Positions 4,707-29,305 of a DNA stretch of 33,501 bases are shown here, piece after piece. Location of the stretch: positions 1 to 33,501 of the forward strand of contig CACYSA010000006.1 in assembly GCA_902777015.1 (NCBI GenBank), read 5' to 3'. Made by a program: the position numbers and the translations under genes. Within the stretch, counting starts at the first letter, position 1. Every line of letters begins with the position of its first letter. The notes beneath the pieces were generated by a model. The model was given only the letters and a program-made list of their open reading frames with translations. It searched no databases and was not told the DNA's origin. This stretch comes from an uncultured Erysipelotrichaceae bacterium (GTDB lineage Bacteria > Bacillota_I > Bacilli_A > RFN20 > CAG-826).

Positions 4707-4716
4707 GGCCGCCTCC

Positions 4717-12516: not shown

Positions 12517-12966
12517 TCACAATAGGTCCACACCGGTCCAAATAAGCTTTTTATGGACCGAGTTTTCAATATTTTTAAGAGCTTCATATTTCCATCTTTT
12601 CGCGGTTGTTATCGAGATATAAAACTCCTTACAAATCATGGTCCATGTTTTACATGATAAAAACCTAGCGATCACTATTTTCTTCTGATTTAAATCGCTT
12701 AAAGAATCCACTGCTTCCATGATTATTTTTTCGTATTTATCAAGTTCTTCATATTTTTCATCAATCTTCTTTTCAATGGCGATTATTTTATCTATCCAAC
12801 GAATAAAAGGAGCTTTTGTACTGTGAGACTTTTGAACTCTGGGTTCATCATAGTTTCCACCAGGAATCGAATTAGCGAGGATTTCATATTGAGCTTTGAT
12901 TCCTTCAAGAGAAGAAATCTCTCTTTTTATCTGATATGGCTTATTTAAAACTTCTTGAAGGATCAT
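12517..12966 (-). CDS. Late-gene transcription regulator, RinA/ArpU-like (sigma-70 region 4-like)
   Basis: A 149-residue protein of the DUF1492/ArpU type found just before the packaging genes in Firmicutes phages. The N-terminal half is a long helix (I-K-R-E-I-S-S-L-E-G-I-K) and S-I-P-G-G-N-Y-D; the C-terminal half has the sigma-4-like HTH, L-S-D-L-N-Q-K-K-I-V-I-A-R-F-L followed by W-T-M-I-C-K-E-F-Y-I-S-I-T-T-A-K-R-W. Such proteins turn on late transcription. GAGGAGGT precedes the start, and the gene overlaps the previous one by 26 bases. It is the last gene before an intrinsic terminator. Confidence 0.75.
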   Translation of the reverse strand: MILQEVLNKPYQIKREISSLEGIKAQYEILANSIPGGNYDEPRVQKSHSTKAPFIRWIDKIIAIEKKIDEKYEELDKYEKIIMEAVDSLSDLNQKKIVIARFLSCKTWTMICKEFYISITTAKRWKYEALKNIENSVHKKLIWTGVDLL

Positions 12967-13288
12967 ATCTCTTTACCTCCTCATCAATTGTTTCCACTAT
13001 CCAGTTCGGATCAAGGGTACATATTAAGGAACAGGTTCTAGAAAAAAAGAACCTTTTGTTAATGTAGATTTGGCCTTTTAATCTCTCCAGTAATTCCTGG
13101 TATTTTCTGTCTTTTTTTATTAACCCATTTTTAGCTTTCCATTTTAGGGCTTTAAGCTTTTTAGAATATTCGCGATATTCTTCCACTGCATCCTGGACTA
13201 TTACTGCCGCTAACCGCTGAGCACCTTCCCAGGTCATCTCACTAGCTTTTAGTCTTATTTCCTCATTATTTTTCTTAGCTTTTGCCAT
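12941..13288 (-). CDS. Small phage regulator-associated protein of unknown function
   Basis: A 115-residue basic protein, not recognised. It has A-K-A-K-K-N-N-E-E at the start, a helical middle (A-A-V-I-V-Q-D-A-V-E-E-Y-R-E-Y-S-K-K-L-K), and a C-terminus with two Cys (S-R-T-C-S-L-I-C). The ATG at 13288 is preferred over an upstream GTG at 13303; the site before it, GGTGGTGAT, is weak. It is the first gene of the transcript with the RinA-like regulator, in front of an operator-like region. Confidence 0.5.
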   Translation of the reverse strand: MAKAKKNNEEIRLKASEMTWEGAQRLAAVIVQDAVEEYREYSKKLKALKWKAKNGLIKKDRKYQELLERLKGQIYINKRFFFSRTCSLICTLDPNWIVETIDEEVKRYDPSRSFK

Positions 13289-13337
13289 TCTTATCACCAC
13301 CATGAGATAAGTTTAAATGAGTAATTTAAAACACGTA

Positions 13338-13598: not shown

Positions 13599-13626
13599 AA
13601 AAAGAGCTATATTTCAAGCTCCTTTT
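13599..13626. terminator. Bidirectional-looking terminator at the end of the Ssp island
   Basis: GAGCT/AGCTC forms the core of a hairpin with an A-rich arm on one side and a T-rich arm on the other, 2 bases after the stop of the 175-aa gene. On the minus strand the stem is followed by TTTTTCTTTT. One A-C mismatch lies in the extended stem. Confidence 0.6.
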
Positions 13627-13627
13627 A

Positions 13628-14155
13628 TTAGAAGAAATCATCTGTTCCAGGATTAACTTCGCCATCAGTATCGTTTGCTTTAAATTCATTGAGGAATTGA
13701 TTAGCTGATGTTAAATAATCTTCGTATCTAATATTTGAATCAACCATAAGTTTGTTATAGATGTCTTCGAGACCGCCAAGCATATACTCTTCAAACTCTT
13801 TGTAGTTATCATCTGTTTCTGGATTTCTAAACGTTCTATTTAATCGAGCTTTTTCATCGTATTTATCTTTGTTCCCTAATAAAGTAACAAACTTGAACGC
13901 CAATCTAACGTCATGGCTATGGGAATTAAATTGTTCAGCCATGATGTTTTTATCTCTTGATTTATCAGAATCTGGCTTCACTTTATGGTTGTGCATTACT
14001 CCAACAATCGCAGACATGACGAACACTTCTATAACAAGGTTAAAAACTGAGGCACCAGAGTCTTCGTCAATTTTGCCCACTAAAGCATTGACCATATCAG
14101 CGTGTCTACCATAGAAGTAATAATTCTTAAGGAACATGTTTTTATCTGCAGCCAT
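13628..14155 (-). CDS. Last gene of the restriction module; unknown 175-aa protein
   Basis: A 175-residue protein, not recognised, that follows the SMC-like ATPase by one base. It starts with K-N-Y-Y-F-Y-G-R-H-A-D-M-V-N-A-L-V and has a hydrophobic helix V-F-N-L-V-I-E-V-F-V-M-S-A-I-V-G-V-M around 37-54, then a His- and Asp-rich part, F-K-F-V-T-L-L-G-N-K-D and an acidic tail ending D-D-F-F. The size and the G-R-H-A-D-M start make it a possible partner subunit of a DndD-like ATPase. It may correspond to one of the SspF/G/H proteins, but which one cannot be told here. AGGAGG precedes the ATG. Confidence 0.6.
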   Translation of the reverse strand: MAADKNMFLKNYYFYGRHADMVNALVGKIDEDSGASVFNLVIEVFVMSAIVGVMHNHKVKPDSDKSRDKNIMAEQFNSHSHDVRLAFKFVTLLGNKDKYDEKARLNRTFRNPETDDNYKEFEEYMLGGLEDIYNKLMVDSNIRYEDYLTSANQFLNEFKANDTDGEVNPGTDDFF

Positions 14156-14156
14156 A

Positions 14157-16145
14157 TTATTTTCCTCCTAAAGCTATAACACTATGATATGTGTCTTCTT
14201 TAAAGATACTGTATTCTGAGCCAATTTGTGACTTCATTTTTTCCCTCAAAATTGGACCGCCAACATCATTAATAAAAACAATAATCTGATCGGCGATTTT
14301 CGGCATTAAGTCACTAAAGCTTTCCATTTGTTTCATACCAAAGTTAGAAACAGGCGCATCCATAACGAGTGGGTACGATTCTTTTTCCACCTCTTCTTCG
14401 ACAGCTTCAGGATCAATATCCTTTTCACCATTGACTTTAATGATTGCGCCAATAAAAGCAAGGGCAACAGCAACATCTTGTCCGCCAGAAGTAAAATCAT
14501 TAGATAACTCGTAATCTAGGGTTTTGATTTGAACACCGTAATTAGAATCTAAGGTAAATGTAATTACTTCTTCATAGAAATCTCTGAAAATCTCATTAAT
14601 GGCTTTAGCAAGTTTTTCTCTAGTTTCCTTTTCTTTTCTTTGAATGAATCTATCAATTTGGTTCTTCAAGAATTCAGCCTCAAGATAATAGGCTTGAAGC
14701 TTTTTGGTTTTTTCATCTCTGCTCTTTAGAATCCGAGCTTCTTCCTCTAATCTATTGATATTGTCCTGTTCTGTAAGAATAGATTTTTCTTTTTGACGCT
14801 TTTCGTCCATTAAATAAACAATTTTTTGGTTGTAACCAATTTCTTGCTCTTTTAATTTTCCTATATCTTCTCTAACACCACCGATATCTTTATTTAGCTG
14901 TTCTAATTCTTCCAACTTTTCGTTGTAGGATTTCAAATCATCAGCAAGGCCTTTTCTTTCTCTTGTAAAGTCTTCGTCAAAATAATTTGCTTGCCTCTTT
15001 ATTTCTTTGATTTCATTTTTAAAAGTTTCAATTTCAAATCCAATATTATTTGGAGGCAATAATTCTAAAAGGTCATGTAATTTGTTCCAATGATCAGAAC
15101 CTTCTACAAGATCCTCACCACAGATACACTTATGATTTGCCATTAAGAAATTAATAGCATCAACATTCATTCCAGGAATACCTTTGTCAATACTATCCGC
15201 ATCCTTCATCGTTTCTTCAACATCTTCTAAAAGAGATGCAAGAGCGAGATAAAAACCATTTGAGCTCATTTTTTTGAACAAAGTCTTTTTTCTATCGTTA
15301 ATTCTGACTCTTAGTGCGCTCAATTCATTGGAAAGAACTTTAGTTCTTTTTTGCTTTCCTTCTACTTCGGCATAAGCCATAAGCCTTTCGCTCAAGGTAT
15401 CTCTTTGAGTTGTGTTATAGGTAATCTCACCTTCAATTGTTTTGATTCTTTCTTTTGCTGAGTTAATCCTATCGTTACAGCCTTGAACCGTTTCAATTAT
15501 TTCCTTCAGTCTTTTGTTGGCTGTATTCTTGCTAATCTCAACTTCATAATCTGCACTTGCTGCATCTAAATGTTTGACAGCTTCATAGAGATGATTAAAA
15601 CCAAGAAGACCTTTGACAGCTTTCGCAAAGTCATTATTTGTTCCACTCTTTCCTCTAGACATTTGTTCACCAACTCTTGTTAAGCTTTCACCTTCAAGGA
15701 AGAAATATGGAAATAGATCTTGATGCATTAATTGCTTAATAAGTAAATTTGCATCTCTTCCTCTAACTTGTTTGCTAATTCCTTCATCATCTTGATAATC
15801 AACAGTAATTGTTGAATCTTCGGCATCGACTCTCTTACTAAGTTTATGGAAAAGTTGCTTTCTTGAAATTGTATATAGTCTATTTGCATGTAAAAGAGAA
15901 ACGGAAGCACAAACCTCTTCATAAGATTCTGGCTTCATGTTACTTCTTAAAGATTCATTGAGAATTTTTGTATACTTACAAGTTCCGTATAAGATCCACT
16001 GAAAAGCTTGAATTAACGTTGTTTTGCCAACACCGGATTCAGCAATTACGATTGTAACTTTTTTATCAGGGTTTGTTGAAAAATCGATTGTTTGTTCACC
16101 TGTAAATTGACGGAAGTTTTTAAGAGTTAAAGATTTAATAATCAT
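14157..16145 (-). CDS. SMC/Rad50/DndD-like ATPase of the restriction module
   Basis: A 662-residue AAA-type coiled-coil ATPase. The N-terminal I-K-S-L-T-L-K-N-F-R-Q-F and Walker A A-E-S-G-V-G-K-T at 35-42 are DndD/RecN-like, but with Glu-Ser in place of the usual Asn-Gly. Residues 200-320 and 375-515 form long coiled coils on either side of a short apex with C-x-C (340, 342; C-I-C-G-E-D-L). The signature S-G-G-Q-D is at 553-557 and Walker B V-M-D-A-P at 594-598. Known DndD-like proteins bind DNA ends and act in DNA handling or restriction; here the Ssp neighbours imply a role in sensing or attacking unmodified DNA. It overlaps the 55-aa gene by four bases (ATGA). Confidence 0.85.
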   Translation of the reverse strand: MIIKSLTLKNFRQFTGEQTIDFSTNPDKKVTIVIAESGVGKTTLIQAFQWILYGTCKYTKILNESLRSNMKPESYEEVCASVSLLHANRLYTISRKQLFHKLSKRVDAEDSTITVDYQDDEGISKQVRGRDANLLIKQLMHQDLFPYFFLEGESLTRVGEQMSRGKSGTNNDFAKAVKGLLGFNHLYEAVKHLDAASADYEVEISKNTANKRLKEIIETVQGCNDRINSAKERIKTIEGEITYNTTQRDTLSERLMAYAEVEGKQKRTKVLSNELSALRVRINDRKKTLFKKMSSNGFYLALASLLEDVEETMKDADSIDKGIPGMNVDAINFLMANHKCICGEDLVEGSDHWNKLHDLLELLPPNNIGFEIETFKNEIKEIKRQANYFDEDFTRERKGLADDLKSYNEKLEELEQLNKDIGGVREDIGKLKEQEIGYNQKIVYLMDEKRQKEKSILTEQDNINRLEEEARILKSRDEKTKKLQAYYLEAEFLKNQIDRFIQRKEKETREKLAKAINEIFRDFYEEVITFTLDSNYGVQIKTLDYELSNDFTSGGQDVAVALAFIGAIIKVNGEKDIDPEAVEEEVEKESYPLVMDAPVSNFGMKQMESFSDLMPKIADQIIVFINDVGGPILREKMKSQIGSEYSIFKEDTYHSVIALGGK

Positions 16146-16309
16146 TTTCCCACCTCCGACTCGATGATTTTTTTAATTCTATCAATCATCTCTTTGTCTT
16201 TTAGGCCATCAGGTTTTTGAGCATAATTTGCTCTTTCTAATTTGAGAACTCTTTTTCTGATATTATCTCTCATTTCCTGAACTGGCGTAGCATTATCTTC
16301 AATCGCCAT
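16142..16309 (-). CDS. Small linker protein between helicase and SMC-like ATPase
   Basis: A 55-residue charged helical protein, not recognised. It starts at the ATG at 16309, which lies inside the end of the helicase gene (11-base overlap) and follows GGGAGGG by eight bases; a longer frame to 16390 lies entirely within the helicase gene. The sequence has V-Q-E-M-R-D-N-I-R-K-R-V-L-K-L-E-R and K-E-M-I-D-R-I-K-K-I-I-E-S. Tight coupling to both large neighbours, with overlaps on both sides, suggests a stoichiometric subunit. It may be one of the three SspFGH proteins. Confidence 0.65.
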   Translation of the reverse strand: MAIEDNATPVQEMRDNIRKRVLKLERANYAQKPDGLKDKEMIDRIKKIIESEVGK

Positions 16310-18485
16310 AGTTAATACCCTCCCAATCAATGAATTCGTTTTCGTCAACCATATCAAAATCATTAAGACCAAATATGTCAGTGATTTCATTTACCAAGGC
16401 ATCGGATTCATGTTCGTTTTCAGCTAAAGAAGAGAATTCCTTAATTCTTTCAACTTCGTTTTTCGCCAAAGACTTAAAACTGCTTAAAAACTCACTGCTA
16501 TATGCGCTTGCATCATCTAACGATATTGGCAATGTAACAAAATCGTAAATATATGAATATTTTTTTCCTTCAAATTTTCTTAAAACACGTCCTCTACGTT
16601 GAATATATTCTCTTGGGTTTGTGCTACTAGCCAAAATAAATGCTGTTTTGATGCTTGGAATATTAACACCTTCATCCAAACACTTAATGGCAACGACCGC
16701 TTGTAAATCATTCCCATCTTTATAACGTTCTTTAATAACTTTTCTTTCTTCAATATTTTCTCTAGATGTATATCTAGCTATTTTCATTCCTAAATCATGG
16801 CCAAGCATTTTGCAGACTTCATCTATTTGTTTAGTTTCCTCTCCCGATAATCCTCCGGAAACTTTGCCTGTTCCACAATAGATTAATAAATTGTGATCGT
16901 TTTTATACTTTTCAATTTCTCGTCTTAAAACATCAAGCTTATTGGAAGCGGTTGCAACAATTCTCGCTCTCGCTATTGCGAGTCTTTCTCCCTCTTTAGT
17001 TAATTTTGGTTCACCGTTAGAAACATAAGTGTTCTTACTAATTTTTTCTGTCAATTCTAAATATTTTTGCAATTCTTCATCATTCAAAGAAACAGGAACT
17101 GGATAGTAGTAATATCTAGTTAAAACATCCGATTCAATAGCTTCTCTCAAACCATAATGAATAACAGGATCTCCAAAATAATCATAAATCGCATTTGTGC
17201 CATCTTCATCTCTGTGTCTATCGATAGTTGCAGATAATCCGATTCTATATTTAAAACTGTCAATCATTGATTCACGTAAGCCTTCAGCACCGAAGTTATG
17301 AACTTCGTCTGCTATGAATAAAACATCACCTTTAATGCCTCTTAAGAGTTTTTGAACTCTATCAAGCTTGAATGATGCATTTGTTGTAATAAAGAAGAAG
17401 TTATCAATAATTCTGTCATTGTAATCTTGGATGGTTTGTCCAAGAACTGACTCATAATTCTTATACTTTGAATCAGAATATCCAACAATAAACTTCAAAT
17501 TGAAGTTTTCTTCTTCTTCTACCCATTGCTCGACCAAATGAGTATAAGGACAGACAATAACTGTTGCCATCCTATAATTCAATCTTTCTAAAAGCTTTAC
17601 AGCAGCTGTTAAACCTGTAATAGTTTTACCTGTGCCTGTACCCATATCAAAAAGACCTCTATACCCTTGTCTTGCCCATTTATTCAAGGCATCTTTTTGA
17701 TATTTGTACAATTCAAAAGGATATCTACATTCTGGCTTAGCCCCACTAAGTTGTTTTCTGATTCTTTCTCTGCTTTCATATTCATCAATATCTCGATGGT
17801 ATGAAGCTTTTCTATATTTAAAAAGTGCATTTTTTACTGCTTCAGGAAAGTCGTAAACTTCAAGCGTATTTGTTTTATCGTCCCAAAGTCGATCAAAATC
17901 ATCTTCTATCATAGAAACACGCTTTGGTTCTTCCCAGCTTTTGAAAACTTGAATAGACTCAAAATTATTAGCGAAAGCATTGTCTGATTCATTCAATGAA
18001 CCAGTAAAAGCAACTTTGTTCTCGCTTTCATCAACAAAAAGACCAATCTTTTCATGAAACATGCCCATATCAGCCTCATCGTAAGCTGATATCTTGTCAG
18101 CAACCTTAATATCTAATACACCTTCTTCAATAAGGTGACATAAAAAATTTAAACGTTCGCAATCAAACTCATCAGTGTGATCTTTGAATTCTCTCAGCAA
18201 TGCATCTTCAACCACTTCTTTTCTGTTTTTGTATCCTAATTTTATTGCCTCAACATCTTCTTTGTATAAAATCGGGGAAACAACAAAATAAATGTGTGCA
18301 TTTTCTTTTGAGAGCAAGTAACTAATTCCTTTAGAAATTTTTAATAATGCTGACGACGAAAAAAAGCCAACAGCTCTCTTATATATAACACTACATTCAA
18401 GCATTTTAGAAACAAAATAAGTTCCTAAATCAGGACAGTCATCGGAGCGATATTTATCTTTAATTTCTATTTCCGTCAGTTTCAT
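16299..18485 (-). CDS. PLD-domain SF2 helicase of the restriction module
   Basis: A 728-residue protein. The first ~220 residues form a phospholipase-D-like domain with H-E-K at 144-146 and G-S-L-N at 162-165. An SF2 helicase follows: Walker A M-G-T-G-T-G-K-T (281-288), D-E-V-H at 393-396, G-L-S-A-T at 416-420, and the arginine finger Q-R-R-G-R at 629-633. The PLD domain usually gives DNA nicking or binding and is common in defence helicases, so this is likely the DNA translocase that scans or damages foreign DNA. It starts 2 bases after sspA with no good ribosome binding site. It best fits the helicase partner of an SspFGH-like set. Confidence 0.87.
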   Translation of the reverse strand: MKLTEIEIKDKYRSDDCPDLGTYFVSKMLECSVIYKRAVGFFSSSALLKISKGISYLLSKENAHIYFVVSPILYKEDVEAIKLGYKNRKEVVEDALLREFKDHTDEFDCERLNFLCHLIEEGVLDIKVADKISAYDEADMGMFHEKIGLFVDESENKVAFTGSLNESDNAFANNFESIQVFKSWEEPKRVSMIEDDFDRLWDDKTNTLEVYDFPEAVKNALFKYRKASYHRDIDEYESRERIRKQLSGAKPECRYPFELYKYQKDALNKWARQGYRGLFDMGTGTGKTITGLTAAVKLLERLNYRMATVIVCPYTHLVEQWVEEEENFNLKFIVGYSDSKYKNYESVLGQTIQDYNDRIIDNFFFITTNASFKLDRVQKLLRGIKGDVLFIADEVHNFGAEGLRESMIDSFKYRIGLSATIDRHRDEDGTNAIYDYFGDPVIHYGLREAIESDVLTRYYYYPVPVSLNDEELQKYLELTEKISKNTYVSNGEPKLTKEGERLAIARARIVATASNKLDVLRREIEKYKNDHNLLIYCGTGKVSGGLSGEETKQIDEVCKMLGHDLGMKIARYTSRENIEERKVIKERYKDGNDLQAVVAIKCLDEGVNIPSIKTAFILASSTNPREYIQRRGRVLRKFEGKKYSYIYDFVTLPISLDDASAYSSEFLSSFKSLAKNEVERIKEFSSLAENEHESDALVNEITDIFGLNDFDMVDENEFIDWEGINYGD

Positions 18486-18487
18486 AT

Positions 18488-19612
18488 TTATAAAGTTTTC
18501 AATGCATCAATAAGAACGTCGATTTCTTCCTTTGTGTTAAAAGCACCAAGACTAATTCTTACGGTTCCTTTGCTTTCTTCAGAACCGATGAATTCATGAA
18601 CAAATGGACTGCAATGATATCCCGATCTAACCAAAATATTAAATTCTTCACTAAGAATAGAAGAGACATCATCGGAAAGGTATCCATCAACAGAGAAAGA
18701 TACTATCCCAAGCACATTTTTATCGCATGGCAAGTATAATTTTATCTTATTTATCTTAGAAATACTATCTAAAAGATAGCGAGTAAGTTGGATTTCATGA
18801 TCTAAAACATTATGATTTCTCAGCCAATCACAGCTCACATTCAAGCCATAAATGGCAACAGAATTTGGAGATCCAGATTCATATTTAGCAAACCCTTTGG
18901 AAGGCATTTCGTGATTAAGCGAATCACTTCCATTTCCACCACTTTTGACAACCGCTAAGTTGTAATCGCCAGAAATAATAAACCCAGCAATGCCAAACGA
19001 AGCATACAAAGATTTGTGTCCTGCAAAAACGCAAAAGTCACTATTGTTCAATTCCGGATTCTTAACACCAAATATTTGAGCGGAATCTAAAATAGTAATA
19101 GCACCATATTGCTTCGACAGACCAAAAATGCTTTGATAATCAAGCTCAAACCCAGTTACATTGCTCACTTGAGAAGCAAAAACCGCTTTTGGCTTTTTGA
19201 TTGAAAACATTTCTTCTATTTTTTGTAAATCTGGATGCCATGTCTTTTTGTCAAAAGGAATAACTATTATTTCAATATCAATTGATTTTTTAACATTATA
19301 AAGAGGCCTGACAATTGCGTTATGTTCAAATGGTGTAATATAGACACAATCGCCATCATTAAAATCAATACCTTGAATAATCAGATTTAAACTCTCTGTT
19401 GCACTAGAAGTAAAAACGACTTTATTAAAATCAACCTTAGCAAAGGAAGCGATTTTTTTCCTTGTGTCAAGAATCATCTCGGCTATGTTACTCGATTGTT
19501 TGTATAATCCTCTTCCTGAATTAAATGCTAGATTTCTATTAGCATAATCAAGAGCCTTATAGACTTCTTCAGGTTTTGGATAGGTTGTTGCACTATTATC
19601 AAAATAGATCAT
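18488..19612 (-). CDS. sspA: Cysteine desulfurase of the phosphorothioation system
   Basis: A 374-residue class V aminotransferase. F-D-N-S-A-T-T-Y-P at 4-12 is the family N-terminus; E-H-N-A at 96-99 supplies His97, I-L-D-S-A-Q has Asp176, and G-H-K-S-L holds the PLP lysine, Lys200. The catalytic Cys334 is in R-S-G-Y-H-C-S-P-F, followed by G-T-V-R-I-S-L-G. It removes sulfur from cysteine and would pass it as persulfide to SspD. All expected catalytic residues are present, so it should be active. GGGGGG precedes the ATG. It is placed between SspC and the helicase, so it is part of the cluster and not a general NifS/IscS gene. Confidence 0.9.
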   Translation of the reverse strand: MIYFDNSATTYPKPEEVYKALDYANRNLAFNSGRGLYKQSSNIAEMILDTRKKIASFAKVDFNKVVFTSSATESLNLIIQGIDFNDGDCVYITPFEHNAIVRPLYNVKKSIDIEIIVIPFDKKTWHPDLQKIEEMFSIKKPKAVFASQVSNVTGFELDYQSIFGLSKQYGAITILDSAQIFGVKNPELNNSDFCVFAGHKSLYASFGIAGFIISGDYNLAVVKSGGNGSDSLNHEMPSKGFAKYESGSPNSVAIYGLNVSCDWLRNHNVLDHEIQLTRYLLDSISKINKIKLYLPCDKNVLGIVSFSVDGYLSDDVSSILSEEFNILVRSGYHCSPFVHEFIGSEESKGTVRISLGAFNTKEEIDVLIDALKTL

Positions 19613-19623
19613 AAATAACCCCC

Positions 19624-22600
19624 CTATAATAAGTCTTTAAGGATCTTGCTTAACACAGCTATTTTTTCAGAAGATGTAACGCTTCCGGAAAATTCTTCAA
19701 GAACGCTCTCAACATTATTCTGTAAAAGTGCTGCCATTCCAGAAATTTCATCATCGCTATTCAAAACTGATGATAAATCATTGTTTTTCAGAGAAACAAT
19801 TTTTGCCGTAGTTAAAGCATTTTTAAATTGATAAAGTGCCTCGCTGAGTTTTTTGGATTTATCAGAATCCCAATCTTCAATGTGTTGTCCAATTGAAATT
19901 TTAGACAATTCATCAATAGCATCAAAATCTTCATATGATAAATTTACAATAGAAGCAAAAATATCCTTATCCGCCTTCTCTAATATTGGTGTTTCGCCGG
20001 TCTTAACGTGCTTTTTAACAAAGTCTGTTAATCCCATTTTTAAGCTCGTTTTTTCATCGATGTTAAACAATTCCTTAGTGGACTCAATTATTTGTTTTTT
20101 GAATTTATTCAATAAAGCATCTTTATTATCGACGATTCTCTTAATTTTTGTATAAATATCATCATAATTTTTGGTTTCAAATATTTGCTTTGGACTATCA
20201 AAAATAGATTCAAATGGATTTATATTGAATGAAAGAAAAACATTTTTATATTCAATTAAATCAAGGTCTAGGGATAAGTAGTTGTTATTGGTTGTACATA
20301 GTCTTATTACTTGAGGTAAACCAATGAAGAAGCGTTTAATAGAATTTGAAAGAGCTCTTATATCTTTTCGGAAGTTATTCTCTGATTCAGTATGGAAAAG
20401 CTTCATCATTTTTTTGAGATAATTCTTTTGTTCGAGCGAGCCTTTAGAAAACGACAATTTATATTTATCATTCAATATTGATTTGACTATATTGTCTGAA
20501 TCAAGATCAATTTCTTTATTGGAAAAATATAGAACAACATTGTCTGACAATTCAGAAATAGCTTTAGCGAGCAAAATAGGCAAAACACCAACTCGAATTC
20601 CGTAAGGAGGGAGAGTGTATTTTTGAACAATTTCAAGTACCGTTATTTTGCTTCCAGCAGATTTTGAAATTGTATCTTTAATTTCTTCAATGATCGTTCT
20701 AAAATTTTTCGAACTTTCAGTACTTTTGCTTAGTGAATCATTTTCATCTAAAACAGACACTTTGACAGATGTTTCTGGACTTGTTGGAGAGTAATTTAAA
20801 TCGTTATCACCACCATCTATTAACCAATCTATCACGTGATTTATTGCCTTTTGGTATTGAGTGGTGACTTCTTTTTTGTTAATTAATTCATTGTTAAAAA
20901 CCAGCTTAAATGGGTAGATGCTATCCATAATGTTTGAAGCAAGCAAACCCAATGTCTTCTCGTTCTTCAACAATACAGAGTAATACTCGCATCCTTCATT
21001 AAAATATTTATTTATTAAAAATCTGACGTCACTGTTAGATTCTTGAAGGAGCAGGTCTATTTCGCTTTTTGTTATTTCATCAAGGCCTTTCTGCTTTTGG
21101 ACTTCTTCTAAACAAGCAACCCTTAAAATTGATTGATAGAAAACGTTTTCAATTTCTTCGGTCGGATACTTGTAAATAATCCTTCTGTCATTAATTTCTT
21201 TGCATTTATCAATTATTTCTTCAACCGACATCTTGTTGCGTAAAACATTAACGATAATTCCATCGCAATAATTTGTTTCAAAATAATAGTTAAATGATTT
21301 TATCATTCTAAAATCTTCTTCTGAATAAAATATAACCTTGAAAAATCTAGTAATTTTGTTTTCCTCATTATGCTTTCTTGGCAAAACAAACCTATGTTCA
21401 TTAATCCTTTCTGCAAGATCGCCATATTTAATGTTTTTAAATTTTGTTTTTTGCAAAAATTCAACCATTTCATCAATTTGTTTTGTGTTAGAAAGAGCAA
21501 AGGAAAGAAGATTGTTCAAAATATTTCTTCTAAGATAATGCAAATCAATTAACTTGCTAATGATCTGACTAACATCTTTTAAAGGCATTCCTAGAGCTAG
21601 AGCGATAATTTGCTCATTTGAAGGGAATCTTTCAAGATTATTTATCATTAAAATAATGGACAAAGCTTTGATTATTCTTCTTTCAGTTCTGTTTTCTAGT
21701 TTTGAAAGAATCGATTCTGTCCTATACCAAATATTTCTGATATGATTGGTCTCTTCTTTCTGAAGCATTGGACTAAAGTAATCGTACACTTTATCAACAT
21801 TAAAAAGTCCACTGCTCTCAGAATGAATGAATGAGTTAAACGAATTATCATCTGTATCTGATAAAAATGTAAATAACGTTCTTTCATTTTGAGCTGCATA
21901 TTCGGAAACCTGAATTAAGCAATAGGCGGTTATCGGATTAAGAGGAAAACAGCCATTAAATAGTACCTTTTCAGCAAGTTCATTCTCGAATAGAGAAAGG
22001 GATGATATTTCTTTATAAAATTCTCTATTTTCTTGTAAATACTTCTCAACAATCTTTTCGCTCTCAGCGCCTTTGCTTCTTTTTATAGCTGCAGCGATAA
22101 TTTGGTAGTTTTCATCTAAGCTTCTGTTGAAACGGATCTCTTTGAATCTTCCTTCAACAACCTTGAAAGAATAGCTTTTATTTTTGCTACCATCATCATA
22201 AAGAGTAATACTCTTATGTGTAACGCAGCAGAGATGAATTTGGTTTCCTCTACTGCTTCTTGCACACAATTCAGCAAAATCCTGGATCACTTTAAGATCC
22301 TTCATTAGATTATTTGAATTACTCTCAATGAATTTTGAAAATTCATCGAAAACAACAAATAATCCACTGTAACCATGCTTCTTAACGGATATAGAAATAT
22401 CAGAATATGTCTTAACGACATCATTGTTAATTAAAGGATTAAACTCCAAACCGATATTCACACAATCATATAATTCCTTAAAAGAAGCATATGCGGTTGG
22501 TGAATAGTTTAATAATCCTTGTCTAAGCTTTTCTAAATTAATATTTTTAAAGCCTTTACATTTCAGAAGAACTTCTTCTTTCACTTCTTCCTTAGCCATC

Positions 22601-23088
22601 CATCTATCAAGCAAACTGATGCAAATGTCAAATGCAGATTGAGGGATGATAGAATCCATGTCAGCTCTTTTTAATGATTCGTTTAATGCTATTTGCATTG
22701 ATTGAACGACGTTGTCGTAATTTGAGTTAATAAGCACTGGAAGCAGGGAAATATTTTTTTCTTTTATCTTTAAAAGATCATTTTTTAAGTCGGAATCAAT
22801 TTTTCCTATCTTTTCAACTAATTCGTTCCATTCAACAGTATCTTTGTTTGGACCCAACAAAAAGATCAATATTAAAAGTAAAAAGGATTTGCCTTTGCCA
22901 TAAGGTCCTACTAAAGTAGTTGCATAATCTTTTGAAGTACCAAGAACAGTTTTAACATATCTCTTAAGAACATCACAAATGTCGGAAGTCGGGATATATT
23001 CTTTTATTTTTTCAGAATTGTTTAAATCAAGTTCAAGATTAACGGATGATTGAAAATTCTTGTTAATAGAAAAGTAATTAGAGTACAT
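19624..23088 (-). CDS. sspC: Large ATPase of the phosphorothioation system (SspC-like)
   Basis: A 1154-residue P-loop ATPase. Walker A is L-V-G-P-Y-G-K-G-K-S at 59-68 and Walker B L-F-V-V-F-D-E-F at 243-250. After the ATPase domain come a long helical middle with winged-helix-like segments around 480-560 (L-A-L-G-M-P-L-K-D-V-S-Q-I-I) and charged stretches to the C-terminus. In Ssp systems SspC is the ATPase partner of SspB and SspD during sulfur insertion. The assignment relies on neighbours, size and P-loop, since no distinctive motif beyond those is known to me. It overlaps the sspB stop by one base. Confidence 0.8.
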   Translation of the reverse strand: MYSNYFSINKNFQSSVNLELDLNNSEKIKEYIPTSDICDVLKRYVKTVLGTSKDYATTLVGPYGKGKSFLLLILIFLLGPNKDTVEWNELVEKIGKIDSDLKNDLLKIKEKNISLLPVLINSNYDNVVQSMQIALNESLKRADMDSIIPQSAFDICISLLDRWMAKEEVKEEVLLKCKGFKNINLEKLRQGLLNYSPTAYASFKELYDCVNIGLEFNPLINNDVVKTYSDISISVKKHGYSGLFVVFDEFSKFIESNSNNLMKDLKVIQDFAELCARSSRGNQIHLCCVTHKSITLYDDGSKNKSYSFKVVEGRFKEIRFNRSLDENYQIIAAAIKRSKGAESEKIVEKYLQENREFYKEISSLSLFENELAEKVLFNGCFPLNPITAYCLIQVSEYAAQNERTLFTFLSDTDDNSFNSFIHSESSGLFNVDKVYDYFSPMLQKEETNHIRNIWYRTESILSKLENRTERRIIKALSIILMINNLERFPSNEQIIALALGMPLKDVSQIISKLIDLHYLRRNILNNLLSFALSNTKQIDEMVEFLQKTKFKNIKYGDLAERINEHRFVLPRKHNEENKITRFFKVIFYSEEDFRMIKSFNYYFETNYCDGIIVNVLRNKMSVEEIIDKCKEINDRRIIYKYPTEEIENVFYQSILRVACLEEVQKQKGLDEITKSEIDLLLQESNSDVRFLINKYFNEGCEYYSVLLKNEKTLGLLASNIMDSIYPFKLVFNNELINKKEVTTQYQKAINHVIDWLIDGGDNDLNYSPTSPETSVKVSVLDENDSLSKSTESSKNFRTIIEEIKDTISKSAGSKITVLEIVQKYTLPPYGIRVGVLPILLAKAISELSDNVVLYFSNKEIDLDSDNIVKSILNDKYKLSFSKGSLEQKNYLKKMMKLFHTESENNFRKDIRALSNSIKRFFIGLPQVIRLCTTNNNYLSLDLDLIEYKNVFLSFNINPFESIFDSPKQIFETKNYDDIYTKIKRIVDNKDALLNKFKKQIIESTKELFNIDEKTSLKMGLTDFVKKHVKTGETPILEKADKDIFASIVNLSYEDFDAIDELSKISIGQHIEDWDSDKSKKLSEALYQFKNALTTAKIVSLKNNDLSSVLNSDDEISGMAALLQNNVESVLEEFSGSVTSSEKIAVLSKILKDLL

Positions 23089-23942
23089 TATTGATCACCT
23101 CCGAAATACCTTCTGAATATATCAGGCAGTTTGCATTCTTTTTCAAAATAGACGGTATTTAAACCTGCGGTTTTATTAATAGTAATCAAGCCATTTCTTC
23201 TCATCTCTTCTAAGTATTGCAAATACATGTTCTTATCGAGGTTGAAGATTAAATATGGGGATCCAATCTGTTCAAAAGAATCTTCTATTTTAAATTCTTT
23301 GAATTTATATAAAACCGAAAGAGAATAATAAACAATTAAGTAGGAAAGGCTGTTGTAAGTCGGTCTAACTTTTTCAATTCTATCTCCGTTTTTCCTCAAC
23401 AACTTTAACGATGACAAAGGGCATACATAATTGTCTTCAGGATTATTAATTAATTCATCATCAATGTAGCTCTTAAGAAAGACACTCACATCTTCATCAA
23501 TATACTCTGGTTTTGTTTCAAAACCATCCATTGAAAAAACAGCTTCTAAATATTTGACGAGATCTTGTTTTCTGAAGCTTTTCAAATCAGTGTTAAAAGT
23601 ACCATAAAAAACAGGACACTCTTCATAATTTGTGCAAAGATAAAAATGAATCATAAACCAGGTAAATGGCGATTCAAAATATCTGTCCCATTTCAAAATA
23701 AGTTTGCCAAGATTTCCAATTTCAGTTTTTGTAGCAGAAGATACAATTATATCGCTTGCTTGGAGCCAATATCTCAATCCTTTTACCATATTTGCACCTA
23801 TTCCAAGCATTCGAATACCATTATTCTTTGCAAAAACATTAACTTCTTCATTTTCGGCGATAGTATTTAAAGCTTTTTCGTACCAACCATCTCTTATATA
23901 GAAGGACTCACTTTTTTTAAATTTAATTGTATTGGGTTTCAT
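23088..23942 (-). CDS. sspB: DUF4007 protein, SspB-like nickase component
   Basis: A 284-residue DUF4007 protein. The family motif is clear at 46-59: L-G-I-G-A-N-M-V-K-G-L-R-Y-W, matching the L-G-x-G-K-N-M-V-x-x-I-R-Y-W pattern, preceded by F-Y-I-R-D-G-W-Y. SspB proteins of this family nick one DNA strand in a sequence-specific manner so that sulfur can be added. The C-terminal part (residues 180-284) has F-K-I-E-D-S and K-E-C-K-L-P-D-I-F-R-R-Y-F and may bind DNA. The gene lies between sspD and sspC, which supports the role. A weak AAAGGCG site precedes the ATG. Confidence 0.85.
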   Translation of the reverse strand: MKPNTIKFKKSESFYIRDGWYEKALNTIAENEEVNVFAKNNGIRMLGIGANMVKGLRYWLQASDIIVSSATKTEIGNLGKLILKWDRYFESPFTWFMIHFYLCTNYEECPVFYGTFNTDLKSFRKQDLVKYLEAVFSMDGFETKPEYIDEDVSVFLKSYIDDELINNPEDNYVCPLSSLKLLRKNGDRIEKVRPTYNSLSYLIVYYSLSVLYKFKEFKIEDSFEQIGSPYLIFNLDKNMYLQYLEEMRRNGLITINKTAGLNTVYFEKECKLPDIFRRYFGGDQ

Positions 23943-23943
23943 A

Positions 23944-25866
23944 TTAATCGCCTTTCTTAGTTCTTAGAACTTTTTTCATGTAACAACCACCATCGAAATG
24001 TTTTACACATTCAAGGCAGCCTACACATTTTGAAGAATCAATCGTATACATGATTGTACTGTTGCTTACATGCCCTTTTTCAGAATTAACAACTTTAAGA
24101 GCATTAAATTTACAAACGCTTTGGCAATAAGAGCAGCCTATACAAGTTTGATACTTAGTGATTTGATTTCTCACACAGTCCGACATTTCTTTTTGATTCT
24201 GAAATGGTTTTGACACCTTAAGAAATGTAACTTTTAATTCTGTAGATCCATTTTTCCCAGATAAGCGGATAATTGGCTCATTGGTTATTTTGGACAAAAC
24301 ATAAACTTCATTAAGTCTTTTGTTTCCGATTTCTTTATTGATTAAACCTAATGGTTTAAAGAAGGTATATAAATCATCAGTTATAGCCTTCGTTAATTCA
24401 AAATTAATACTTGCCTCATCAAAGGTACAAGGTTTAAAAGTAACAACTGCATTCTTGCTATGCTCAAGACCATTGCCTCCTTGCCTCGCCTTCCACTTGC
24501 CTTCGTCAATGTATTCTTGCCAGTCTTCCTTGCCAACTTTTTTTGCAAACCTATATAGCATGTTCTTAAAATTGGAAGATTCTTCATTCATATAAATTGA
24601 TGACAAAAAAGCAGACCAATCGCTATTATTTGGGCAACACCAACATCCAACTCTAGAAAATCCTTGTTTGTAAGCATCGTTGAACGGAATATTATTCGCA
24701 AGAAGATATAGCCAAACATCAAAATCTGTCCAATCAATAATTGGAGAAGCAACTAATTGTTTTGAAATCTTAGGGCTATCAGTATCTCTATCGTATTTAC
24801 TTCTTGCTAAAGATTCCGCTCTTCTCACGCCTTGAAAAGAAAGCAATCTCAATTTGTTTTTATAAAGCTGCTCAATCTTTTTTGTAATTGCACCAGTTTT
24901 GAAAATCGTGCAACACCAACGCATAACCCTGCTGGGAGGGCCAACTACTTCACACAAATTTTCAAAATCTTGATCGTTATTTTTAGCAATTAATAAAGGC
25001 GTGTGAGGATATTGTTTTTTAAATAATTCAACATATTTTCCTGATGCAGGGTATTCTAAAGTTGTGTCGCCATAAATATGAGGAACGCTTTCAGTGCCTA
25101 AAGCTCTCATCACCAAATGGCTTGTAACAGTTGAATCTTTACCACCGCTAAATGATACAAACATCGATGACAAATCATAATTTTTTGAAATGTTTCTAAT
25201 ATACTCTATAGCCTCATCAGTGATTGAATTTAAATGATCTTTATTTAGCAGAATAAACTTCTTAATAAAATCATTGTCCGTATCTGAGGCAACATACTTT
25301 AGATTTTCATCTTCGTATTTCTTTAGTTCACTAATCACATGTAAAGGATCTCTTTTTCTAAATTCAGAAAAAGGCATTTTGATTTTTTGCCCATTAACAA
25401 CATAGTTGTTAGCTCCTACACACCAAATTGATTTGCCTGCAAATTTGAAAGGTTCTTCTAATAAAACTTCTAATAATAGTCTTTCAGCGGCAAAAACAGG
25501 TCTCAAATCGGCACCTATTTTTAGACATTTAGAATTGCATTCAGGACATATTTCGGAACAAGAAGGGGCACAACATTTTTCACAATAGAAAACTTCTGTT
25601 TTTAACAGTTCTGTTCTCTTACCGCACACAGGACATGTGCTAGTTTCACAGAGAAGATCATCACAGTTTTTACAAATATAAGTTTGCAAGGGAAGCGCCT
25701 CTTTCTTTAAATGACTATTTAGTAAGACATATGTTATCACATTTGCTGGACTTTTAAAATTGTTATAAGAAAAAAGTCCAATAATTCTAGCAACAATAGC
25801 CGAATAGAGACAATAAATATGTATAAAGATGTAATCTTTTTTTCTATTATTATAAATCTCAACCAT
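23944..25866 (-). CDS. sspD: PAPS-reductase-like sulfur-transfer enzyme, SspD-like, with zinc ribbons and dicluster ferredoxin domain
   Basis: A 640-residue protein. Residues about 65-114 hold many C-x-x-C pairs (C-K-N-C, C-P-V-C, C-E-K-C, C-P-E-C) forming zinc ribbons. The PP-loop S-F-S-G-G-K-D-S at 238-245 binds ATP, followed by W-C-C at 317-319 and C-W-C-C at 408-411, possible cluster or persulfide ligands. C-I-G-C-S-Y-C at 575-581 and C-V-G-C-L-E-C at 614-620 are ferredoxin-type [4Fe-4S] sites. The enzyme would activate DNA backbone with ATP and attach sulfur from SspA. AAGGAG just upstream is inside the final codons of the replication gene, so the two are one transcript. Confidence 0.88.
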   Translation of the reverse strand: MVEIYNNRKKDYIFIHIYCLYSAIVARIIGLFSYNNFKSPANVITYVLLNSHLKKEALPLQTYICKNCDDLLCETSTCPVCGKRTELLKTEVFYCEKCCAPSCSEICPECNSKCLKIGADLRPVFAAERLLLEVLLEEPFKFAGKSIWCVGANNYVVNGQKIKMPFSEFRKRDPLHVISELKKYEDENLKYVASDTDNDFIKKFILLNKDHLNSITDEAIEYIRNISKNYDLSSMFVSFSGGKDSTVTSHLVMRALGTESVPHIYGDTTLEYPASGKYVELFKKQYPHTPLLIAKNNDQDFENLCEVVGPPSRVMRWCCTIFKTGAITKKIEQLYKNKLRLLSFQGVRRAESLARSKYDRDTDSPKISKQLVASPIIDWTDFDVWLYLLANNIPFNDAYKQGFSRVGCWCCPNNSDWSAFLSSIYMNEESSNFKNMLYRFAKKVGKEDWQEYIDEGKWKARQGGNGLEHSKNAVVTFKPCTFDEASINFELTKAITDDLYTFFKPLGLINKEIGNKRLNEVYVLSKITNEPIIRLSGKNGSTELKVTFLKVSKPFQNQKEMSDCVRNQITKYQTCIGCSYCQSVCKFNALKVVNSEKGHVSNSTIMYTIDSSKCVGCLECVKHFDGGCYMKKVLRTKKGD

Positions 25867-25867
25867 T

Positions 25868-26770
25868 TTAATTCTCCTTAAAAGCTATTTTCTTGAGATA
25901 TAAATCAACTTCTTCACACCACTTTTGCATTCTTTCATCATATCCTTCCATCTTCTCAAGATTATTCTGAAGAGAAATTACAAAGTAAGAGGCCATATTT
26001 TCTATTTCGCTATGAGATCTATTTACCTGGTCTCTTGTGTATCTGAAGCAGCGAATAAAAAGTTCCTTATCCCATAAAGCAATAGTTTCTTTTATGAAAT
26101 CATTGAACTCCTGGATATAAGGTTCATAAATGGAAAGTAAGTGATCGTTTATCAAACAACAAACATAATAATTGGGTTCAAAAGGCAATTTGCCTATATC
26201 AAATCTATCTAGTTTATCTATTCTTTTACTTTTCTTTTCCTTTTTACTTTTACTTTGTGTACTTTCGTTAGCAGAAACCGAGTTAATGTCAGCATTATCT
26301 TCATTTATGTCAACATTAATTGAATTATTGTTAGCATTAATTCCATAGAACCTAGAAACCTTCTCTTCCTCTTCAGGAGACAAAATCCAATGCGGCCTTT
26401 CAGTTTTCTTTCTTCTATAAGTAGAAGCCAGGAATTGTTTCTGAATAGCTTTTGAAGTTACTACACCATCGTACTCTAAAGATAGAGAATCTATCATGTG
26501 ACATTCTTCCATCTTAAGTAGGATAGTTTTCACGTATTCGACATCAAGCTCAAAGTTTTTAAAATCTAAACTGGTCCAAATAGAATCCGCTAATTCATCA
26601 AGAGTCATTTCTAAATAATAACCAGAGGAATACACCATGGTTAGAAAGCAAATATAGATTGAAAGAAATTCTGCACCATAAAGCTTCATGAGCTTCTTGA
26701 TCTTAGGCTCAAGCAAAATGTCGGTGTCTATAGGAAAATAGTCTAGCCCTACTTTTAATTTTCTAGCCAT
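25868..26770 (-). CDS. Phage replication initiation protein, DnaD-like (Lin1244/Lin1753 N-terminal domain)
   Basis: A 300-residue protein. The N-terminal half has the DUF4373 form: Y-F-P-I-D-T-D-I-L-L-E-P-K-I-K-K-L near 11-27, then L-Y-G-A-E-F-L-S-I-Y-I-C and an ending of F-L-A-S-T-Y-R-R-K-K. A linker with many Asn, Asp and Ser (about 145-190) leads to a C-terminal DnaD-type helical domain. It would start phage replication by loading the host helicase. It is the only recognisable replication gene in the window, and its last codons contain the ribosome binding site of sspD. Confidence 0.83.
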   Translation of the reverse strand: MARKLKVGLDYFPIDTDILLEPKIKKLMKLYGAEFLSIYICFLTMVYSSGYYLEMTLDELADSIWTSLDFKNFELDVEYVKTILLKMEECHMIDSLSLEYDGVVTSKAIQKQFLASTYRRKKTERPHWILSPEEEEKVSRFYGINANNNSINVDINEDNADINSVSANESTQSKSKKEKKSKRIDKLDRFDIGKLPFEPNYYVCCLINDHLLSIYEPYIQEFNDFIKETIALWDKELFIRCFRYTRDQVNRSHSEIENMASYFVISLQNNLEKMEGYDERMQKWCEEVDLYLKKIAFKEN

Positions 26771-26792: not shown

Positions 26793-26895
26793 TAAAAAAC
26801 TACAATAATAAGCGGGTTGTGCATTATTTCTGCAGTAAAAAGTCAATTATTTTCGTTTTTGATTACTGTTCACAGGTATTATTTGCAATTACCTA
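26793..26895. repeat. Diverged direct repeat, copy 2, upstream of the replication gene
   Basis: Copy of the sequence at 13474-13575 in the same orientation. It lies in the space between the replication gene and the excisionase-like gene. On the minus strand it includes TTGACT, which could be a -35 element for the replication gene, but no convincing -10 is at 17 bases. Confidence 0.5.
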
Positions 26896-27102
26896 TTTAA
26901 GCTCATTTTTTTCGATATATTCTTCAAGCATATTCCTGGTGATTCTCTTAGAAGAACCAATGACGAAACAGCGAAGTTTTTTATCTTTGATGAGCTTATG
27001 AATGACTCTAGTTGGTACAGATAAAGCTTCAGCAAGTTCTGCAACTGTGAAGAATTCTTTATTTCTAAGCTGCTCTTTATCGAGCTCTGATAATTCTGCC
27101 AT
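26893..27102 (-). CDS. Excisionase-like MerR/HTH-17 protein
   Basis: A 69-residue winged-helix protein of the excisionase family: F-F-T-V-A-E-L-A-E-A-L-S-V-P-T-R-V-I-H-K-L-I is the helix-turn-helix and L-R-C-F-V-I-G-S-S-K-R-I-T-R the wing. In this class the protein binds DNA near attachment sites to direct excision, or acts as a small regulator. It overlaps the antirepressor stop by one base (TAATG) with AAGGAG upstream. Together with the tyrosine recombinase it may form a recombination pair. Confidence 0.78.
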   Translation of the reverse strand: MAELSELDKEQLRNKEFFTVAELAEALSVPTRVIHKLIKDKKLRCFVIGSSKRITRNMLEEYIEKNELK

Positions 27103-27848
27103 TAGATGATTTCTCCTTCTTTTTTGATAGTTTTCAAAATGAGGTTAATGCCTGTTTTATAAACAAAGACTCTTTTATTGGTCTTAATTGTGCATTTGCT
27201 ATCGCCATATTCAAAAGCGATCACTCTGAAATATTTCTTATCGATATACTCCTGGAACGGGAGATTATCTTCATTAAGAATTCCACTGCTTCTAAGGATT
27301 GAAAGCATCTTTACTTTATCGATTCCTTCAATAGCTAAAATAGTCGGAACATCTAATAGGTCTTTAAGCACACCAGAATCGGTAGCTCTTTTAACAAATT
27401 GACGAGCTTCTTCTGTTTCTTTATGGTCTTTTTCTAATAAAGAACATTTAAGTAAAAGCGCGGCATGATCTTCGAGTAATGCCTGAGCTGTTTCTGGAGA
27501 AGATACGACAGACCTTAATTCATATTTACCTGTTCTTCTAATAGCAGGAAGAACTTCCTCTGTAACCCAAACCACGAATGGCTCAGCTTCTTCTTTTCTA
27601 CTTTGTAGAATCAAGCGGTATAAATTACTTTCAGTGATAAAGGTAAAGTTTTGTGGTTTACCGCTTGTTGGAAGTTGGATCTTCACCACTCCTTCTTTCT
27701 TGAGTCTTTTTCTGGCATCGCTGACATTTCCAATATGGAGAATAGCGCATGCATCTTTTAAACAAAGAACCGGTCTTCCAAGAGGATCCACTGTTGTTCT
27801 AATCGTTCCAAGAGAGGAACTTGTATAAGGGATAATATTATTTTCCAT
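27102..27848 (-). CDS. BRO-domain phage antirepressor
   Basis: A 248-residue protein with an N-terminal Bro-N domain: P-V-L-C-L-K-D-A-C-A-I-L-H-I-G-N-V-S-D-A at 26-45, then T-F-I-T-E-S-N-L-Y-R-L-I near 68-79 and F-V-V-W-V-T-E-E-V-L-P-A-I-R-R-T-G near 90-106, the most conserved Bro-N block. The C-terminal part is a separate antirepressor domain with basic and hydrophobic strands. Such proteins counter the prophage repressor on induction. It overlaps the tyrosine recombinase stop by 11 bases. Confidence 0.85.
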   Translation of the reverse strand: MENNIIPYTSSSLGTIRTTVDPLGRPVLCLKDACAILHIGNVSDARKRLKKEGVVKIQLPTSGKPQNFTFITESNLYRLILQSRKEEAEPFVVWVTEEVLPAIRRTGKYELRSVVSSPETAQALLEDHAALLLKCSLLEKDHKETEEARQFVKRATDSGVLKDLLDVPTILAIEGIDKVKMLSILRSSGILNEDNLPFQEYIDKKYFRVIAFEYGDSKCTIKTNKRVFVYKTGINLILKTIKKEGEII

Positions 27849-28806
27849 GGTTTTTTCCTTTCATTCTTTTTAAGAAATTGTCTGAACCCATAATCTTTGA
27901 TTCCACTATCGATTCTGTATGATTATCTTCCCTGGATAAGTTATGGAGATAGATCATTGTGGTATTGATGTTTTTATGTCTCAAAATCATCTGAACCTCT
28001 TCCACACTTACTCCAGATTTAAGAGCTAAGGTTGCAAAAGTATGTCTTAGTCCATGAGCGCTGTATCTAGGATCATCTAAATCGATAGAACGAAGCAGCT
28101 CTTTTATTCTTTTAGAAATAACTTGTGTGGTTATTCTTTCTTCTGGATTGCGATTGCTATGAGAAATGAACAAAGCTTCAGCAGAAGAATTCCTCATTAA
28201 AAGGTATTCATCAAGAACCTCTTTAACAGATAACGGAAGCTCCACTCTTTGGTCTTTAGAGCTATGTCTTTTTCCTTGGATGAATAGATATCCATCTTTG
28301 ATGTCGGTGACGTCAGCTCTAGCTACTTCAATAGTTCTTAATCCAGTCATAACAATAAGCATCACAATTGCAAAATCGCGATAGTTTGAAACTGATTGTG
28401 AACTCAGTCTTTTTGCTTTTAGCAAAAGCTTGTGAACTTGAGCAAGAGTTAGTGGCTCTCTTGTAAAATCCGATTCGATTCTTTCATAGGTGAGATCAAT
28501 AGAAACATCTTCATAGAACTTTCTTCGATAACACCACTGATAGAATTTCTTTAAAACAACGATGTATTTTTGGATAGATGAGCCCATCAACTTTTTCTTG
28601 ATTTTGAGATAGTCATTTTTGAAAGCTACTACATCTTTTTCATTTGGTTTATCTATACCTTTTTGTTCAAGGTAATCTACATAGATTCTTAGTAAGCTCC
28701 CATATGACTTTTTGCTCACTCTTTCATTGTCGATGGAATCGATGAATTCGTTGACAAGTTCTCTATGAGAACGAGCATTTAGAATAAGCTCTCTAGATTC
28801 ATTCAT
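27838..28806 (-). CDS. Tyrosine recombinase, XerC/phage integrase-like
   Basis: A 322-residue tyrosine recombinase with an N-terminal SAM-like core-binding domain (about 15-105) and a catalytic domain. Active-site residues are visible: Arg157 (T-G-L-R-T-I-E), Lys179 (G-K-R), His251-x-x-Arg254 (H-G-L-R-H-T), His277 (L-R-H-K) and nucleophile Tyr286 (M-I-Y-L-H). The protein is complete. It lies in the early operon and not at the attachment end, where two serine recombinases lie, so it may resolve dimers or invert DNA, or be the integrase of an older element. Confidence 0.9.
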   Translation of the reverse strand: MNESRELILNARSHRELVNEFIDSIDNERVSKKSYGSLLRIYVDYLEQKGIDKPNEKDVVAFKNDYLKIKKKLMGSSIQKYIVVLKKFYQWCYRRKFYEDVSIDLTYERIESDFTREPLTLAQVHKLLLKAKRLSSQSVSNYRDFAIVMLIVMTGLRTIEVARADVTDIKDGYLFIQGKRHSSKDQRVELPLSVKEVLDEYLLMRNSSAEALFISHSNRNPEERITTQVISKRIKELLRSIDLDDPRYSAHGLRHTFATLALKSGVSVEEVQMILRHKNINTTMIYLHNLSREDNHTESIVESKIMGSDNFLKRMKGKNHGK

Positions 28807-29083: not shown

Positions 29084-29164
29084 GGCCTATTTCTCCTTTC
29101 TCCCCAGTTACCCACTGCTCTTGAGGATTTGCGATTATTCTAGAAAGGAAAACTTAGCCTGCAT

Positions 29165-29232
29165 ATTTGCTCGGAGTATATAGTTTTTGCTTCGTGATAA
29201 TGTCTTAGAGAAAATCTATATATTCGGAGCAA
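29165..29232. promoter_or_regulatory. Divergent control region with inverted operator boxes
   Basis: Two inverted copies of CTATATA...GAGCAA (29165-29190 and 29216-29232) lie between the XRE gene and the recombinase-side genes, with outer CTCTTGAG / CTCAAGA repeats around 29119 and 29236. Each TATATA could be a -10 of one of two back-to-back promoters. The same box is found upstream of the late-regulator operon at 13338. Confidence 0.5.
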
Positions 29233-29305
29233 CTACTCAAGAAAGACTCTTTTTATTTATGATTTAAGCGGTTTATCAAGCTCTACATGGATCGGAAAGG
29301 ATCCA

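Follow-up and report, generated by a model that had tools for sequence, protein, structure and literature searches.

The eight tightly packed minus-strand genes at 13628-25689 of the window (i.e., the whole stretch of DNA analyzed, 33,501 nt) constitute an intact operon, which quite probably (we would put it at roughly 0.78) encodes, in an uncultured member of the gut Bacilli, a prophage-borne SspABCD-PbeABCD phosphorothioate (PT) restriction system. Speaking for this are the gene content, the intact catalytic motifs, the linkage of Ssp and Pbe genes in two gene orders, the block-wise exchange of the two halves and the slot occupied by the island within the prophage. The features of the window that the argument draws upon are the following:

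456..6357, minus strand: phage head/packaging genes (neck, head-tail adaptor, capsid, protease, portal, large terminase)
12517..13303, minus strand: two phage genes, gp12941 and transcription regulator phrog_36, the downstream slot flank (both conserved in G533, see below)
13599..13626, minus strand: terminator-like hairpin directly 3' of the PbeD stop (10 pairs, T-rich tail)
13628..14155, minus strand: PbeD (TIGR04062 dnd_assoc_4-like), 175 aa; position and size fit
14157..16145, minus strand: PbeC, CxC-type ABC ATPase (DndD/Rad50-like); PADLOC PbeC 2.4e-98
16142..16309, minus strand: small protein at the PbeB position, 55 aa, named by position
16299..18485, minus strand: PbeA, PLD (HKD) nuclease domain fused to an SF2 helicase; PADLOC PbeA 1.7e-228
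18488..19612, minus strand: SspA, cysteine desulfurase, SufS/CsdA-like; Aminotran_5 4.1e-67, PADLOC SspA 1.9e-30
19624..23088, minus strand: SspC, AAA+/BrxC-like ATPase; PADLOC SspC 2.8e-85, BrxC 5.5e-27
23088..23942, minus strand: SspB (DUF4007), predicted DNA recognition/nicking; DUF4007 1.4e-60
23944..25689, minus strand: SspD-type sulfurtransferase with an N-terminal Cys-rich ribbon, a PP-loop PAPS-reductase domain and a C-terminal 2x[4Fe-4S] ferredoxin
25690..25867, minus strand: spacer of 178 bases from the phage rep to SspD, in which a weak candidate for an extended -10 promoter lies (25813-25784)
25868..26770, minus strand: phage replication initiator (rep, Lin1244-like), the upstream slot flank; Pfam Lin1244_N 2.1e-12, phrog_2562 2.8e-31
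26893..32792, strand not specified: excisionase-like HTH, antirepressor, tyrosine integrase, HTH and two serine integrases

Read 5' to 3' on the minus strand, the order is SspD-SspB-SspC-SspA-PbeA-PbeB-PbeC-PbeD, and the ORF coordinates agree with the sequence-only reading that eight same-strand ORFs follow each other closely, either overlapping or no more than 11 bases apart: there are gaps of 1 (SspD/SspB), 11 (SspC/SspA), 2 (SspA/PbeA) and 1 (PbeC/PbeD) and overlaps of 1 (SspB/SspC), 11 (PbeA/PbeB) and 4 bases (PbeB/PbeC), and none of the eight operon ORFs contains a frameshift or an internal stop. The SspD start first proposed, ATG 25866 (a 640-aa ORF), lies too far upstream; because relatives align with that ORF only from residue ~60, the SspD profile match in the window's genome starts exactly at 25689, and a good purine-rich ribosome-binding site is found 8 nt upstream of TTG 25689, the latter is probably the true start of a protein of ~581 aa, hence the gap left between SspD and the upstream rep. 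The scan that gave the promoter candidate within this gap was, overall, at chance level (53 found vs 61.1 expected), while the hairpin scan gave 10 sites vs 6.0 expected, the longest stem being that of the hairpin after PbeD.

The first four genes had been taken for an Ssp-type PT modification set, which the family scores bear out, the modification itself being predicted; the domains named earlier for the operon (PAPS reductase, DUF4007, SspC, cysteine desulfurase, PLD plus SF2 helicase, AAA_23 ATPase) were likewise recovered. SspD, matching Pfam PAPS_reduct (1.3e-33) and Fer4, retains an invariant SFSGGKDS motif and invariant ferredoxin Cys residues in an alignment of 11 loci, as a PP-loop sulfurtransferase should. 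Its subfamily is nearer BrxP, and because it scores far better in PADLOC as BrxP of BREX type 4 (1.5e-85) than as SspD (5e-9), the modification half represents a distinct subfamily; a subset of SspD proteins shares the ferredoxin arrangement of the BrxP-like protein seen here (PMC12839542). The homology of SspB is evident from its ortholog profile, which matches the solved SspB 6JUF/6LB9 at 3.7e-30, whereas in SspC both the Walker A (G61..K67S68) and the Walker B D248E249 residues are invariant over 10-11 aligned loci. The same holds for PLP Lys200 and catalytic Cys334 of SspA (10-11 loci), consistent with a desulfurase, the nearest solved relatives of which are SufS-type.

These scores also feed a BREX type 4-like alternative, according to which the BrxP-type PAPS reductase, the DUF4007 protein, the BrxC-like ATPase and the cysteine desulfurase would act as BREX and not as Ssp. 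BREX type 4 (brxPCZL; PMC12839542) does have a BrxP-like PAPS reductase with ferredoxin, DUF4007, a BrxC-like ATPase and a desulfurase, the ferredoxin arrangement recurs in the SspD subset just mentioned, and SspB matches the C-terminus of BrxP (PADLOC), yet PglZ, universal among type 4 BREX taxa, and BrxL, present in 96% of them (PMC12839542), found no match in family searches of the island proteins, SspB and SspD are separate, unfused genes, and Pbe genes lie downstream. BREX type 4 itself was rejected upon the lack of PglZ and BrxL among the island proteins, and a BREX-like mode of action for the island is highly improbable.

The absence of SspE from the island, already noted from the sequence, was upheld, as no operon protein matches DUF262. 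Compared to SspABCD-SspE (E. coli 3234/A, V. cyclitrophicus FF75), with which the island shares homologous SspB and SspC, a cysteine desulfurase and a PP-loop protein, the operon thus has no SspE, and it differs further in a longer, BrxP-like SspD with ferredoxin, a SufS-like desulfurase and the order D-B-C-A; the mark of the SspABCD writer is a single-stranded PT, 5'-C(PS)CA-3', and the motif here may differ. A DUF262 protein with an HNH-like end is encoded elsewhere in the host genome, apart from the Ssp genes (G000:C28:6386-8419, L256), where its neighbor is a large protein resembling, at its start, a D12-class methyltransferase.

It is the second half of the operon for which the sequence-only reading has to be revised, as the FGH-type module suggested there did not materialize: the profile check of all eight proteins returned SspD-, SspB-, SspC- and SspA-type matches for the first four, but none to SspF, SspG or SspH (PADLOC), PbeA and PbeC being found instead. 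The four genes of this half, puzzling at first, are explained by PbeABCD being a four-gene set, and the order PLD-ResIII-Helicase_C/small protein/AAA_23/small protein is the PbeABCD order of PMC6459918, wherein DndCDEA-PbeABCD of Haloterrigena jeotgali A29 comprises a PLD-ResIII-Helicase_C PbeA, a 66-aa PbeB, an AAA_23 PbeC and a 152-aa PbeD; a reannotation has them as an HKD-SF2 helicase, a small protein, a CxC ABC ATPase and a DndE-like protein (PMC10853773). PbeA here contains PLD, ResIII and Helicase_C, with H144/K146/D152/S163/N165 and the helicase motifs invariant (10-11 loci), and reaches 4.7e-149 against NCBIfam dnd_restrict_1, which is under the curated cut-off, while PbeC shows the invariant Walker A, C340-x-C342 hook and D596 (Walker B Asp) of an ABC ATPase with a CxC hook (10 loci). 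As to the small proteins, the 55-aa one had no match in the family search, and the relatives examined carry a 47-74 aa ORF with a conserved C-terminal half at the same PbeB position; the match of PbeD to TIGR04062 is weak (1.1e-7, under the curated cut-off), and 8 of 10 PbeD orthologs match that family too. The single-sequence fold of PbeD had a pLDDT of 39, and the structure comparison by profile found no solved relative for it.

That the island would be an SspABCD-SspFGH system (V. anguillarum FF-93; PMC8092258), with an SspFGH-type nuclease module damaging unmodified DNA, is a reading which has in its favor the same writer family followed by a restriction module, as well as relatives (L195 etc.) in which SspFGH comes after the same SspDBCA cassette. 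True SspFGH in those relatives looks, however, unlike the second half seen in the window, the restriction genes are unrelated, and the two large proteins are strongly PbeA and PbeC; SspFGH was rejected for the second half, and the chance of the island being such a system is next to nil.

The likeness to DndCDEA-PbeABCD (PMC6459918), on the other hand, extends to the four Pbe gene types, the CxC hook, the gene order and a PT writer operon next to them, the differences being that the writer here is SspDBCA, that the host belongs to Bacilli and the genes are in a prophage, and that PbeB and PbeD are weakly recognizable. PADLOC recognized no set of Dnd writer genes among the island proteins, whereas in the original description such a set adjoins PbeABCD. 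Published partners of PbeABCD are either Dnd or methylases (PMC6459918, PMC10853773), and the Ssp and Pbe pairing was not found in the open-access literature, where sspBCD and pbeABCD are named together in one paper, and there as separate systems; judged on that literature alone, the combination is likely undescribed.

The pairing is no peculiarity of this contig, as it recurs in dozens of gut Firmicutes. Among 395 genomes of the class, SspDBCA is situated directly upstream, in the same order, at 9 of the 21 full-length PbeA loci (the window included), and the eight-gene order was seen again in two faecal records and, within the class, in 8 further genomes; scans with a single back-translated protein (PbeA, SspC) had given no matches, and alignment-based ones were needed. 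Scanning with the SspD alignment yielded 382 relatives, the 80 best-scoring of which come from Bacilli, Erysipelotrichaceae, Anaeroplasmataceae, Lachnospiraceae, Clostridium and others. Within these best 80 of 382, the window's gene order is present at 29 of the 68 SspDBCA loci showing SspA, and PbeA follows SspA at 32 of the 67 loci with a readable downstream region (directly and with PbeC at 29 of them, after an intervening DUF262 protein at 3), proportions that are not unbiased, as the sample is ranked by likeness to the window's SspD clade and overlaps the first one. Eight further loci of the 67 (L200, L201, L212, L182, L204, L206, L207, L208) have a DUF262 protein and then PbeC, with no recognizable PbeA, which the DUF262 protein may replace there; the rest include, within the same best 80, SspFGH-type modules, DUF262 proteins alone and trios of an SF2 helicase, a GHKL ATPase (HATPase_c_3) and a PLD protein. 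The trio is located directly 3' of SspDBCA at nine of the best 80 loci (L156:17233-21621, which is G533:C13:21626-26014, L159, L160, L161, L163, L166, L217, L222 and L227) and is a candidate for an unnamed restriction module for Ssp marks. In a closed genome (G035:C1:656838-666859, L257:1839-11860), the PbeABCD genes precede SspB-SspC and a gene for a short PP-loop protein, which is an independent, reversed arrangement of both modules. Two PbeA matches contain in-frame TGA codons (six in G467:C1:97201-99180, five in G169:C3:5928-7217), and their hosts possibly read TGA as Trp.

Pairwise identities correlate at r 0.84-0.96 among the four Ssp genes and at 0.94 between PbeA and PbeC, compared to 0.64-0.78 for Ssp vs Pbe across the blocks (a correlation of pairwise identities, not a formal tree test), and the nearest Ssp relative, L148, has 77% identity in SspD, yet 38% in PbeA and 21% in PbeC. 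To judge from these comparisons, each of the two blocks, Ssp and Pbe, evolves as a unit that can be exchanged. Such recombination of one block against the other could also be expected of two independent systems sharing an operon, i.e., an SspABCD PT writer with a role of its own and a PbeABCD paired with base methylation (e.g., by the phage ParB-methyltransferase), all the more so as Pbe-like CxC systems with methylases and without Dnd are known (PMC6459918, PMC10853773). The tight, overlapping operon, the return of the pairing in numerous genomes and in both gene orders, and the fact that other restriction modules stand in for Pbe in precisely this position make this improbable. The ParB-like and DNA methyltransferase protein in question (phrog_498, 1.2e-142) is encoded at 10720-11955 of the window.

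The placement of the island inside a prophage, also proposed earlier, is confirmed by the terminase, portal, protease, capsid, neck, replication initiator, antirepressor and integrase genes around the operon, although the contig stops inside the head/neck genes and thus shows no more than a portion of the prophage. Two integration systems stand side by side at 27838-33054 of the window, a tyrosine integrase and two overlapping serine integrases (29465-31180, 31125-32792), with a tRNA-Met just past them. Contig 13 of G533 (uncultured Bacilli, water deer rumen) runs through serine integrases, HTH, tyrosine integrase, antirepressor and rep to an SspDBCA that is 70/52/49/54% identical to that of the window, and continues with the helicase-GHKL-PLD trio, other genes and, downstream, homologs of gp12941 and the regulator, so that the slot is shared but the effector differs. 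Six more readable elements with a related rep could be inspected (L253 was left out of the count, as it ends too early), and in five of them restriction genes or a defence candidate occupy the slot after rep: type I RM (L249), type II RM (L250), cytosine methyltransferases (L251), an Mrr-like fragment (L252) and the PADLOC defence candidate PDC-S56 (L254), one of these cargoes sitting behind the regulator gene and the others directly after rep, while no defence gene was recognized in the slot of L248. As G533 and five other elements carry Ssp or other defence cargo after rep, positions 13304-25867 of the window are, as far as gene neighborhoods tell, a recurrent and variable defence-cargo slot. 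In several related elements, rep is divided between two ORFs, the break falling at a similar point (G533:C13:13338-14281, G281:C9:3330-4240, G664:C7:31090-31981), and because of this recurrence the split is probably a two-gene form, not a broken gene. G725:C13 and G533:C13, both 31287 bases long, may be one contig.

How far the prophage setting can be generalized is another matter, as a phrog_9 large terminase on the island's contig was found only in the window, among 36 genomes/records, a count limited by fragmented contigs and other terminase families; the notion that most Ssp-Pbe islands are in prophages is unsupported at 1 of 36. Two faecal “phage” records with the operon (MT835506.1 and MT835493.1; L034, L035) were dropped as phage evidence and are probably not phage, because the operon of MT835506 is flanked by bacterial metabolic genes and a phrog_9 terminase is missing from both. 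MT835506 also encodes a DUF262 protein, after PbeD.

Taken more broadly, we lean, with some reserve, towards SspABCD-PbeABCD being a distinct, as yet unnamed PT defence type, and towards SspDBCA of Firmicutes being a general marking cassette with block-swapped effectors (PbeABCD, SspFGH, DUF262 with or without PbeC, the helicase-GHKL-PLD trio), traded by gut Bacilli prophages in one cargo slot.

By analogy with Dnd-PbeABCD and SspABCD-SspE/FGH, the island would modify DNA, tell self from non-self and confer phage resistance, with Pbe depending on the Ssp marks. SspA would pass sulfur from cysteine to SspD (PP-loop, Fe-S), SspB and the ring ATPase SspC would choose and nick the site, and the sulfur would be put into the backbone of one DNA strand, marking host and prophage DNA alike. 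PbeC (ABC ATPase, CxC hook) and PbeD (DndE-like per the published reannotation) might then scan DNA and, where it is unmarked, engage PbeA (SF2 translocase with a PLD nuclease domain) to block replication of the invader, PbeB possibly serving as a small adaptor or brake. A lysogen would thus be guarded against other phages, the prophage's own DNA being already marked. The same parts could, per the model of PMC10853773, make up a suicide module, in which PbeA cleaves host DNA upon infection and PbeB is the brake; the intact HKD motif of PbeA and the small, fast-evolving PbeB fit this, but in the sole experimental study virus DNA remained intact and pbe genes without PT were non-toxic (PMC6459918), which leaves a suicide mode unlikely, if still worth keeping in mind. 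The SspABCD-PbeABCD restriction reading is, in our opinion, the best explanation, and the points against it are the distinct SspD subfamily, PbeD and the PLD-helicase scoring under NCBIfam cut-offs, the phage ParB-methyltransferase, the doubts voiced in PMC10853773 (see below) and the prophage being cut off by the contig end.

PbeABCD has been reported to have PT-dependent antiviral action (PMC6459918), and its status as a PT-reading restriction module is disputed because many copies occur without Dnd; PMC10853773 doubts a simple PT restriction module, given that methylase-linked and independent copies exist. The recurrent coupling to an unrelated Ssp writer, in two gene orders, offers a partner for some of these “solitary” Pbe copies, and if Pbe works with the marks of two unrelated writers, it would have to read the sulfur and not the writer. 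The natural effector swaps behind one writer are ready-made pairs for probing PT dependence, and the element itself would be a temperate phage with a cargo slot through which whole restriction systems are traded.
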